From the NCBI RefSeq assembly GCF_902806695.1, contig NZ_CADCXN010000113.1, forward strand, positions 1 to 64,000: a DNA stretch of 64,000 nucleotides, in the 5' to 3' direction. The stretch's first letter is position 1. Each line of letters starts with the position of its first letter. Made by a program: the position numbers and the translations under genes. Positions 11,984-16,428 of the stretch are shown here, piece after piece. Origin of the DNA: Candidatus Methylobacter favarea (GTDB lineage Bacteria; Pseudomonadota; Gammaproteobacteria; Methylococcales; Methylomonadaceae). Under the pieces are notes generated by a model. It made no database searches. It was not told the origin of the DNA and worked only from the letters and a program-made list of their open reading frames with translations.

Positions 11984-12429
11984 GGCCGTATTTTTTACTG
12001 AAGCCATATATAAGATATGGTCTGCTCCTGCTCCAGTTTCCGCATCGAATCATCGGTGTTTAATTTCAATCAGAGTACCAACCGCTCACCCACAGTTTTA
12101 AAAGCTAGTAGTCTGAGAAGTTGACCCGGCATTATTTAGTCGCTTTCCGGGTATAAAGCGTCAAGGATAACAGCGGATAACTTGGGTATTCCGGGTGCTG
12201 CAATTGTGATACGGTTCGCCATCGAATGAATAGTTGAGGGACTCAATGAAGCCACCTGTCTTTGTTGCGATAGCGTTCGGCATAAAACCTGGTCCGGATG
12301 GTACGCAAAACGATTTGAACGTGATCTGTAACGATCCGGTCAAATCCGCTTGACCTGCTGGCGGACTGAACGTATTTCGCTCTGACGAGAAGCAGCAGGC
12401 GGGCAATATTAAAAGGGCCATGTTTCGTT
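11984..12429. other. non-coding or decayed stretch after flgL
   Basis: No convincing gene here. A short hairpin, CCATAT-ATAAG-ATATGG, lies at 12004-12020, but its T-rich side is upstream, so it is a poor terminator for flgL. Open frames are short, on both strands, and unlike any family I know. Confidence 0.5.
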
Positions 12430-12581
12430 AACTGTTAATTGCCGACCTGATCGGACTCGCCGAGATGCACATTAAGGTCGGGAATGCACTGTTCAAGACA
12501 GAACGCATTAATTTTGCCTTGGAACAACTGGAGATAGGTCTTGCCATCGAGCCCAATAATTTAACCGGCTTGCGAGAATAA
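12430..12581 (+). pseudogene. remnant of a TPR-repeat protein
   Basis: In one plus-strand frame the product reads LIGLAEMHIKVGNALFKTER followed by INFALEQLEIGLAIEPNNL. This has the tetratricopeptide pattern (a GNALF-type first helix, an A-x-x-x-L-E-x-A/G-L second helix and the P-N-N turn). A stop codon precedes the segment and a TAA at 12579 ends it, so only about 1.5 repeats survive. TPR proteins with glycosyltransferase domains are common beside flagellar genes, but no catalytic part is visible here. Confidence 0.55.
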
Positions 12582-13418
12582 GGCAAGTGCCTGCAACAAC
12601 TCTCGTTGCCTTGAAAACCATACATTACTCTTGAGTGAAAGAGACTCCATTATCAAGATACATTAGCACGATATTCTAACAATGCGAAAATCGGGGCATT
12701 ATTGAGCCATGTGGATAAGGATGATTGATAGCTTCATGGCGAAGTAAGGACAGTACAGCCGCACAAATGCGCGTCGAGGCCGCTGCGAACAAACCTTATT
12801 GTGAGATCCGATTAAAAGCTCTAGCGTATCTGCGCAATCCCGGCCGATATTGCCGCAGAAAAAATCGCTGAAACTCTGTCTGTTCCAGTTCAGCCAAGCG
12901 AAACCTAGAGCAATGATCCGTCGCCTATGATCAAGAGAATTGTTAAATTGTAAAGCTTTAGTTGTCACCGATGTGCCCAGCCCTGCCTTGTCCTTATTCA
13001 GAAGCTCTGCGGCTGAAGGTCACCAATGCCCTCGACAGCGGCAACACGACACGCCAAGTCAGCCTTGTATCACGTCAGCTTGTCTTTTGTCTCCACCGTG
13101 CCACGTGTTGCCGGCACACCGGCCCTGTTCACAGCCGACAGATCGGCCGTTACAGGCGAGCCTTGCTTTATAAGGCCGAGCTAACCGCAACCAAGGGAGC
13201 GCAAGTCCAGGATAGCAAAGCTCAAGGCTAGGTGACGTAAGGCCGCTGAGCGGACCTATGACAAGCTCTGGATAACGGGGTCAATTACTCGATCAGTTTC
13301 AGCCTGAGCAAGGCCTGAATTTCTTGAAGCACTGAGGGTATGGGGGTTTCAACTAATAAACAAGTGCGCTAGTGTGACACCAGTTCAACCTCCTCATTTA
13401 CCTCACCGGGAGACTACC
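12582..13418. other. decayed stretch without a recognisable gene
   Basis: Frames of 60-90 codons overlap one another on both strands with no start context or known motif. The 12960-13230 part is GC-richer and may be a worn coding region; one frame contains ALLYKAELTATK. I could not assign it. It leads into repeat copy A at 13419. Confidence 0.4.
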
Positions 13419-13625
13419 ACAACAATCCCTGAATACCTTCTGATAAAACCTCTGGTTTTCTTCGGTCAAGCTAAAAGATTATAGTAGACGTTACTAATCA
13501 TTCGAGATAACGTTATCGGGGAACCGATGAAAAGATCATAAAACCCATTTGAGGGAACTGAAGGGAAAGAGTCAAGCGTGAACCTATAAAAAACCAGCAT
13601 GCCACAGCGCAGAATAAGGCAAAAG
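13419..13625 (+). repeat. 207-bp dispersed repeat, copy A
   Basis: This segment matches 15155-15361 without gaps at roughly 90% identity by eye. It can fold into several hairpins: AAAACC-TCT-GGTTTT (13445-13459), TAGTA-GACGT-TACTA (13482-13496) and ATCGG-GGAA-CCGAT (13515-13528), the last with a GNRA-type loop. No open frame spans it. It may be a structured RNA, the end of a mobile element, or part of a decayed group II intron. Confidence 0.85.
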
Positions 13626-14009
13626 TGCTATGAGCGGAATTCAAGCTTTAGCACACCTGATTTGCGGCTTTAACAGGGCCAGCGGAGATGAATTAGATTG
13701 GAGAGGGATTGGGCTTTGACAAGCGCAAAGTCATTCCATAGGGCAACTGTAAATCTCCCGGCAGATGTAAAGATAACAGCTTGGCGTTTATTGGCTATTT
13801 CCATAAAACCCTGAGCCAGCCTTAAAGGATCTGACCATGCTAAGGTTAGGGGCATTTATCCGATTAGTACGGGGAATTAATTTAGGGTTTAAGGTACTAC
13901 AGTCTGTTGCCAAATTAAATCAACTGACGAGGCTATTTCGAATTTGCATAACTAAATTACTGCATAATAGAAGTGTTAAACAGTTTATTACAACGCAAAG
14001 AGAGGAACA
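13626..14009. other. stretch before the rhomboid gene
   Basis: No gene is assigned. A 61-codon minus frame (13670-13855) reads like protein (IANKRQAVIFTSAGRFTVAL) but has no start signal and no family I recognise; it may be a remnant. The last 100 bases are AT-rich and probably hold the promoter of the gene at 14010, although I see no clear sigma-70 pair. Confidence 0.4.
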
Positions 14010-14711
14010 ATGATACCGATTAGAGATACCGCGCCGTGTAATTCAATACCTTTGGTAACCTGGAGTTTGATCGCAATTTGCATCATTGTTTTTGTTGCCA
14101 TGCAGTTAATGCCCCTTCAATCAAGTTACCGGATAGTGAATCTTTATGGAATGGTTCCGGTACGATACTCCAACCCGCAATGGGCTATTAGCTCAGGCCT
14201 GCCCTTCGATTATTATTTATCATTTTTGACCAGTTTGTTTCTGCATGGAAACTGGCTGCATCTGATTATTAATATGTGGTTTTTGTGGATTTTCGCCGAC
14301 AGTGTGGAAGATAGAATGGGACATTTACGATTTTTGATCTTTTATTTGATGTGCGGCTTGCTGGCTACTATTCTCCAGTGGTATTTTGATCCCACTCTCG
14401 CCATACCGGTTGTGGGCGCATCCGGTGCTATTGCCGGAGTTCTGGCCGCCTATTTTTTTCTATATCCGCTTGAGCGGGTGGTAGTCTGGGTGCCCATATT
14501 GTTTTTACCTGTCTTGATTCACGTTCCTGCCATTGCTTTTCTGGGTTTGTGGATCATTATTCAATTACATAATGCAACAACCTCGCTGCTTTTTGAAGGC
14601 GTTACTGTTGATGTCGCCTGGTGGGCTCATTTGGGCGGCTTTATTGCCGGTTCTGTTTTGTACCGGTTATTTCTTCGAAAAGATCCGCTTAAGAAAAATG
14701 AATTAATTTAG
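14010..14711 (+). CDS. rhomboid family intramembrane serine protease
   Basis: Rhomboids cleave membrane proteins inside the bilayer using a Ser-His pair. The 233-residue product has about six hydrophobic segments. The family signatures are present in order: H84-x-x-x-N88 in HLIINMW, the nucleophile Ser138 in GASGAIAG, and the catalytic His207 in WWAHLGGF. All catalytic residues are in place, so it should be active. GAGAGG lies before the ATG. It sits alone between two copies of a 207-bp repeat, in otherwise decayed DNA. The substrate is unknown. Confidence 0.92.
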   Translation: MIPIRDTAPCNSIPLVTWSLIAICIIVFVAMQLMPLQSSYRIVNLYGMVPVRYSNPQWAISSGLPFDYYLSFLTSLFLHGNWLHLIINMWFLWIFADSVEDRMGHLRFLIFYLMCGLLATILQWYFDPTLAIPVVGASGAIAGVLAAYFFLYPLERVVVWVPILFLPVLIHVPAIAFLGLWIIIQLHNATTSLLFEGVTVDVAWWAHLGGFIAGSVLYRLFLRKDPLKKNELI

Positions 14712-14826
14712 CCTTTTTTAAGGTATAATTCAAAATATCAAAGAGTCTTGCTTCTGGCGATGAAGCAGGTCAGGGGTTGTTTTCTGGCCAAAGGCTATTC
14801 AAGTCCTATCGGAAATTCAAAATCAT

Positions 14827-15153
14827 ATGAAAAAAATTAATGTTGCATTGGTAAGACTTCTTCAATTTATGGTTTTTACCTTGTTTACCTTTATGGTGAT
14901 AACCTATTTTGGCGCTATGGTTTTACTGCCGCTTGATGCCATTTCATTGCTGATAAAACTCATGTCCGCCATCGGCTTTAATGGTTTTATTGCTGCTGTT
15001 ATTGCTATTCCGATTGTCGGTTATTTAAGTTTGCTTGTTTACAAAACCCCCGGGCTTTCGAGGATGATAGTTGATACAGGGGTAGACCTTGTAAAAGCCG
15101 GTAAAATAAGGGTTGAGGCGTTTAACGAAATTGCCAGTACAATTAAAGGCTAG
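14827..15153 (+). CDS. small membrane protein of unknown function
   Basis: The 108-residue product has two clear membrane segments, one around residues 10-40 (LLQFMVFTLFTFMVITYFG) and one around 56-77 (IAAVIAIPIVGYLSLLVY). A soluble C-terminal part of about 30 residues follows (DTGVDLVKAGKIRVEAFNEI). I do not recognise the family. It lies 115 bases downstream of the rhomboid gene on the same strand. Repeat copy B begins two bases after its TAG, so the C-terminus could have been trimmed by that insertion. Confidence 0.65.
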   Translation: MKKINVALVRLLQFMVFTLFTFMVITYFGAMVLLPLDAISLLIKLMSAIGFNGFIAAVIAIPIVGYLSLLVYKTPGLSRMIVDTGVDLVKAGKIRVEAFNEIASTIKG

Positions 15154-15154
15154 T

Positions 15155-15361
15155 ACAACAATCCGTGAATACCCCCTAATAAAACCTCTGGTTTTCTTCG
15201 GTCAAGCTAAAAGATTATAGTAGACGTTACTAATAACCCTAGATAACGTCATTGGGGAACCGATGAAAAGATTACAAAACCGACTTGAGGGAACTGAAGG
15301 GAAAGAGTCAAGCGTGAACCTATAAAAAACCACTATGCCACGGCGCAGAATGAAGCAAACG
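15155..15361 (+). repeat. 207-bp dispersed repeat, copy B
   Basis: Second copy of the segment at 13419-13625, in the same orientation, with about 20 substitutions and no gaps. The hairpins are retained. In the GGAA-loop stem the copy B sequence is CATTGG-GGAA-CCGATG, where a C-to-T change gives a G-U pair and an extra C-G pair forms, so pairing survives. Its left edge lies one base beyond the stop codon of the small membrane protein gene. An IS481-like remnant follows. Confidence 0.85.
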
Positions 15362-15419
15362 CACTGCCTATTATTGAATCCGTCAAAACCCGTAGCATCG
15401 GCAATTGTTCTTGAGTGAA

Positions 15420-16080
15420 AAACGGCCAGACCTTAATTGTTTAATACATCAGCGGTAGTGATCCGGGTTTTGGTGGTATAGAGTCTGGCAAAGGCGACTT
15501 TAAAGTAGATGTCGACAAAGGTTTGCTGATAAACCCCGCCGATGCCTTTAAAAATGCCGACCTAAAAAGTGTCCCGGGAACCGGGATAAAACCTAAGCTG
15601 CGCGCTATCGATTTCCGCACAGACCTCGTCATCCTGACGGTTCTTTTCCAGGGCGGCAACTTGCGCTTCAGTGAGGATTAGCCCTTGCTCTGCGCCTTTG
15701 ACCTCTGGCGCTTTGAGGCGATCTTTAAAGGGGGTCAGAGGCTGGCACGCCGCTCGGCGCTACGCACACACCGGCCTTAGGGCACTCATTACTCAGCTGC
15801 CACTGGCCGTGAGCCGGATAAGGGATGGCATGAGTCAGCACCGACTGTTCCGTCAGGTCAGCGACCCGGTTTTTCAAGTTCCTGGCTTCGCCTTTTATCG
15901 AACAGGGCTTCAACTCCGCCTTGCTCAACCGCTGCTTTATAGCGATACAAGGCAGCGGGACAAGCCCCGCGTCTTACGGGCCCTGGCTGCATTACCCCGC
16001 TCTTCCGCCACGCTCAACAAGCCGGCTTTAGGGGTGATGAGGCTTACCTTATTCTCAAGCATGAGGGCGACCTCTTGGGG
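15420..16080 (-). pseudogene. remnant of an IS481-like (integrase-core) transposase
   Basis: Minus-strand pieces line up in order with this transposase type. First KVSLITPKAGLLSVAEE (near 16060), then after frame changes and stops FKDRLKAPEVKGAEQGLILT and EAQVAALEKNRQDDEVCAEI (15735-15600). Last, QQTFVDIYFKVAFARLYTTK (about 15520-15460), where the first catalytic Asp would lie. The frame ends at TAA soon after LYTTKT, so the rest of the DDE core is missing. Several frameshifts and stops make it inactive. Identification is from memory of the family. Confidence 0.7.
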
Positions 16081-16149
16081 TGGGATAAAAATTCGACAGG
16101 TCTATCTAACTCGTAACCCTTCCTCTTTTCAAGAGCGCTGTCAGGTTAA

Positions 16150-16428
16150 GTCTGAACTATTACACCTCACCTGGCCACAGACAGAAGACGCACGTACGGC
16201 CTCCCTCAACGCAGGCGGCGTGTATCGCCGCGTCTTCGCCCAGGGCTTTACCGGCTTGCCAAGCTTGCAAAGTGGGCGGACTCAAACCCCGCACGGCACA
16301 GGCTGGGTCTTGGCCGGCCTAGCCAGCCACCAGCGCCCCGAGCTTTTTTTCAGGATCAGCAAGGCTGCGGCTTCAGCCAGGGCTTGCTCTTTGAACTCGC
16401 TGGAATACTGCTGTTTTAGGGTGGGCAT
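16150..16428 (-). pseudogene. remnant of a transposase orfA-like gene
   Basis: An ATG at 16428 (minus) opens MPTLKQQYSSEFKEQALAEA, which resembles the helix-turn-helix start of two-gene IS transposases (orfA). In another frame the text continues DPEKKLGALVAG and GLSPPTLQAWQAGKALGED, so a frameshift splits it. It lies directly upstream of the IS481-like remnant on the same strand and probably belonged to the same element. Confidence 0.5.

Follow-up and report, generated by a model that had tools for sequence, protein, structure and literature searches.

Direct repeats around a rhomboid gene pair in Candidatus Methylobacter favarea as very probable decayed left ends of an IS630-family insertion sequence

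Here we report that two direct repeats in the genome of Candidatus Methylobacter favarea, lying on either side of a rhomboid protease gene and a gene for a small membrane protein, are very probably the decayed left-end sequence of one IS630-family (Tc1/mariner-type) insertion sequence, standing around ordinary chromosomal genes. In the window, by which we mean the whole stretch of 64,000 nucleotides that was analysed, positions 13411–13623 and 15147–15359 align as direct repeats over 213 nt without a gap, with 90% identity and a spacing of 1736, a match far above chance. An earlier note made on this DNA had described a 207-bp pair in the same orientation at about 90% identity, and our base-by-base comparison bears this description out, as it does the presence of the rhomboid gene and of a 108-residue membrane-protein gene between the copies. 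The note had also seen no intact reading frame across the repeat, and this we confirm: no frame spans it because, on the identification proposed here, the repeat consists of the left inverted repeat, the leader and the remnants of the transposase start. Its extent has to be revised, since what was described is the left part only of a longer element, of which copy 1 reaches position 13897. The left end of the element is fixed by the target site CTA|G, which places the start of copy 1 at 13417 and that of copy 2 at 15153.

Identification of the element

IS630-type elements move by cut and paste, inserting into TA dinucleotides that are duplicated in the process. If the repeats belonged to a mobile element, other copies were to be expected, and these were found: searches with the left part, with the right part and with the active ends brought the full or partial copies in the genome to 15 or more, each matching some part of the element. 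The search with the left part gave ten matching places in the genome, and that with the right part gave contig ends on C24, C72 and C90 together with internal pieces on C60 and C93. An identical left end of 125–127 nt closes five contigs (C63, C47, C90, C132 and C89) and an identical right end of 126 nt closes three (C24, C72 and C90), as expected from a recent, multi-copy element that breaks a short-read assembly. The active element of this genome is thus known from its ends, its interior being absent from the assembly. The active left end reads C-TA-GTACAACAAACCGCAAATAACCCGTAAT; the reverse complement of the active right end is C-TA-GTACATCAATCCATAAATTCCCCGTAAT. The two inverted repeats agree at 22 of 28 positions and, over 40 bp, 12 of 2000 shuffles did equally well. 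Each of the eight active junctions (8/8) has its TA within CTAG, the left and right flanks of an active copy being read apart, on either side of the assembly gap.

The family assignment comes from the coding remnants as well as from the ends. The reading frame of the active right end encodes LAFIAYFNKTMSKPFKWTYQGKVMTI and then stops, which corresponds to the C-terminus of an IS630 transposase; this peptide shows up to 71% identity to transposases of cyanobacterial plasmids, one of which is annotated as IS630 family. A relative (G059) matches the right end at 82%, and there the match belongs to a full-length element built on the same plan: both termini carry the inverted repeat GTACAGCGCCCCGTAAGTTCG and lie in CTAG, and they enclose a transposase of 388 aa that scores 193 bits against the NCBIfam IS630 model NF033545 (cut-off 100) and 1e-22 against Pfam DDE_3. 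Used as a tblastn query, this transposase detected a decayed C-terminus on C60 (E 2.6e-14), C91 (4e-6) and C2 (8e-5), and other decayed transposase segments on C35 (6.5e-5). The element therefore combines an IS630-type transposase (partial here), TA on both sides and terminal inverted repeats. ISY100 and IS630 both target TA and duplicate it on insertion (PMC2170065); Tenzen and Ohtsubo (1991), judged by the title under which PMC2170065 cites their work, deals with the preference that IS630 shows for a TA lying within CTAG.

Several further searches complete the picture of where the element occurs. The 490-bp element gave no match to plasmid and phage DNA. A scan of 85,000 species genomes for RGGGAACCGATGAAAAGA returned 31 matches, all of them chance on inspection, and a match to the repeat in G040 was rejected as a chance 32-bp match in apparent coding sequence. 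At the start of contig C67 (L172), just upstream of a helicase gene, there is another IS630-type right end (ELKTRILKGIGEFNASPAVFRWNKFDLGVA, in CTAG), apparently of a second IS630 subgroup within the same genome.

The two copies in the window

Copy 1 (13417–13897, plus strand, 481 bp) is an internally deleted, non-autonomous IS630-family element, bounded by TA at 13415–13416 and by TA at 13898–13899. Its left part aligns with the five active left ends and its right part with the three active right ends, and its downstream part matches the copies on C91 and C2 at 93–95%, both of these having the internally deleted form common to copy 1. The terminal inverted repeats are eroded. The left one (13417–13444, plus strand), aligned to other left ends, has changed from GTACAACAA... 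to what is now CCACAACAATCCCTGAATA..., and the right one (13870–13897, plus strand), whose reverse complement is GTACCTTAAACCCTAAATTAATTCCCCGTA, aligns to the active end given above; between themselves, the two ends of copy 1 match weakly, at a level equalled by 81 of 2000 shuffles. A decayed transposase C-terminus lies at 13688–13822 on the plus strand and reads MN*IGEGLGFDKRKVIP*GNCKSPGRCKDNSLAFIGYFHKTLSQP; with the full-length G059 transposase as the tblastn query it gives an E value of 1.7e-4, modest if taken alone. A probable remnant of the transposase N-terminus, a weak one, is located at 13541–13621 (plus strand), where tblastn with the N-terminal ORF of a Calothrix IS630 gave E 0.29, compared with 0.05 in the copy on C35.

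Ahead of this remnant, at 13513–13537 (plus strand), the third hairpin of the repeat, which has a GGAA loop and is directly followed by ATGAAAAG, can be read from the sequence; in the active copies the same segment is AGGGAACCGATGAAAAGACGAAAA. The segment possibly contains the ribosome site and start codon of the transposase, and the hairpin may cover this start. In the old copies the frame of the N-terminal remnant differs from that of the ATG after the hairpin, and translational control by the hairpin is therefore a guess. Judged from its sequence, copy 1 is a complete element, although internally deleted and decayed.

Copy 2 (15153–15362, plus strand) is an IS630 left end that has lost its 3' part, with its target TA at 15151–15152. 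The match to the element ends at about 15362 and the right end is absent. The TAG stop of the 108-aa gene is part of the CTAG site into which copy 2 is inserted. About 70 bp beyond copy 2 lies a decayed fragment of an IS481-family transposase (15433–15597, minus strand; NCBIfam NF033577, E 2.8e-5, 23.8 bits, below the cut-off). Farther on, 16041–16256 has a weak match to psRNA2 (RF02349), scoring 28.9 bits where the gathering score is 65, and its surroundings are decayed. On the other side, the roughly 1.4 kb that separate flgL from copy 1 (11984–13416) contain no recognisable intact gene and are decayed in appearance.

The rhomboid gene pair and its displacement

The rhomboid protease gene (14010–14711, plus strand; Pfam PF01694 Rhomboid, E 3e-35) is present in 36 of the 41 genomes searched. 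Its partner, the 108-aa membrane-protein gene (14827–15153, plus strand), adjoins it in G001, G015, G010 and G014 too, and neither Pfam nor NCBIfam matches the encoded protein above cut-off. With its counterparts in relatives (loci L145, L146, L147 and L149), this gene has a conserved place next to the rhomboid gene in the family, and its product is a possible functional partner or substrate of the protease. The relatives carry the two genes without these repeats; on such comparison of gene content, what the repeats enclose is a conserved chromosomal pair and not cargo.

In G001, which belongs to the same genus, the order is argJ, mutT/thiE, the 108-aa gene, the rhomboid gene and a helicase gene (names read from translations), again with no repeats, and a CTAG stands at the boundary between the 108-aa gene and mutT. 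The stretch of the window homologous to G001 runs from 13913 to 15137, just inside both insertion sequence copies, and the pair is now found in the flgL–uvrB region. Of its former neighbours, mutT/thiE is on C35, where it immediately adjoins an IS630 remnant, itself followed by a gene reading as speA, and the helicase gene is at the start of C67, next to what reads as the end of a further IS630-type transposase, a peptide that taken alone gave no family match. The pair is separated from both ancestral neighbours, and at each break there is an IS630-family copy. Since these neighbours are now elsewhere beside IS630-family copies, the insertion sequence copies are probably the points of recombination. 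Recombination between IS630 copies would have displaced the rhomboid/108-aa pair, and such an insertion sequence-associated rearrangement, as far as draft contigs allow it to be traced, is probably the simplest account of the displacement.

The earlier note had also considered that the repeats might be the ends of a composite mobile unit carrying the two genes. The first half of this idea has held, in that the repeats are insertion sequence ends; the second half, the composite unit itself, finds no support. In such a scenario two IS630 copies would have carried the pair by cut and paste, as a composite transposon, to the flgL–uvrB region, and what moved would have been core genes rather than accessory cargo. 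The pair is indeed bounded on both sides by IS630 copies, which are in direct orientation, it is displaced relative to its context in the same-genus genome, and an IS630-associated composite transposon has been reported, to go by the title of Tenzen and Ohtsubo (1991) as cited in PMC2170065. Nevertheless, we regard this scenario as unlikely. A composite transposon has two complete copies, outer ends and an outer target duplication, and this arrangement was not found here: with the right end of copy 2 gone, neither an outer end nor an outer TA duplication is visible. Nor is there a clean scar at the old site: mutT/thiE now has the IS630 remnant and speA as neighbours, and the helicase gene stands at the start of a different contig, next to another kind of IS630-type end. 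Moreover, overall identity between the two window copies (89%) is no higher than their identity to other old copies (88–93%). They do share four substitutions, which suggests local conversion between them. With rearrangement through IS630 copies as the preferred reading, the locus is an example, if a modest one, of the displacement of two core genes, with breakpoints that coincide with IS630 copies.

Hairpins of the repeat and comparison with known elements

The hairpins of the repeat had led the earlier note to propose a structured RNA. All three can be drawn in each copy, as had been described, and 97.6% of their cells are paired across the aligned copies; most of these pairs, however, are invariant, and the three hairpins in six copies yield a single compensatory cell, a level that 105 of 500 shuffles reached, so that the alignment holds no excess of compensatory changes. 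Folding was no better than that of shuffled sequence (z-scores of −0.42 for copy 1, −0.89 for copy 2 and +0.47 for the active left end), and Rfam gave no match to the window repeats, either at its gathering scores or with the limit relaxed to E≤5, and none to the other copies. A structured non-coding RNA shared by the two copies is accordingly very improbable. The note's suspicion that the repeat is a decayed group II intron, reduced to its 5' part, deserves next to no credence and was refuted by the comparisons: no Rfam intron or ribozyme domain matched at E≤5, the element is bounded by inverted repeats set in CTAG and has the reading frame of an IS630 transposase, and the reverse transcriptase matches of this genome are on other contigs or well away from any copy, none adjoining one. 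A candidate structured RNA or intron thus gives way to a well-known type of element, and the case serves as a warning that the left ends of insertion sequences may resemble conserved, hairpin-rich repeats.

The IS630-family element shares important features with IS630 and ISY100 of the Tc1/mariner superfamily: (i) TA is present on both sides of the insertion, here within CTAG; (ii) the inverted repeats, of 24–28 bp, are imperfect; and (iii) the DDE transposase is related to NF033545 and Pfam DDE_3. In contrast to those elements, the window copies are decayed and no transposase can be encoded by them. A similar comparison can be made with bacterial MITEs and other internally deleted insertion sequence derivatives, which, like copy 1, are short, have both ends of the parent insertion sequence and have no transposase. 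Unlike the MITEs, copy 1 has a length of 481 bp, retains remnants of transposase coding sequence and belongs to an element with few copies; from these features it would be better called an internally deleted insertion sequence than a typical MITE.
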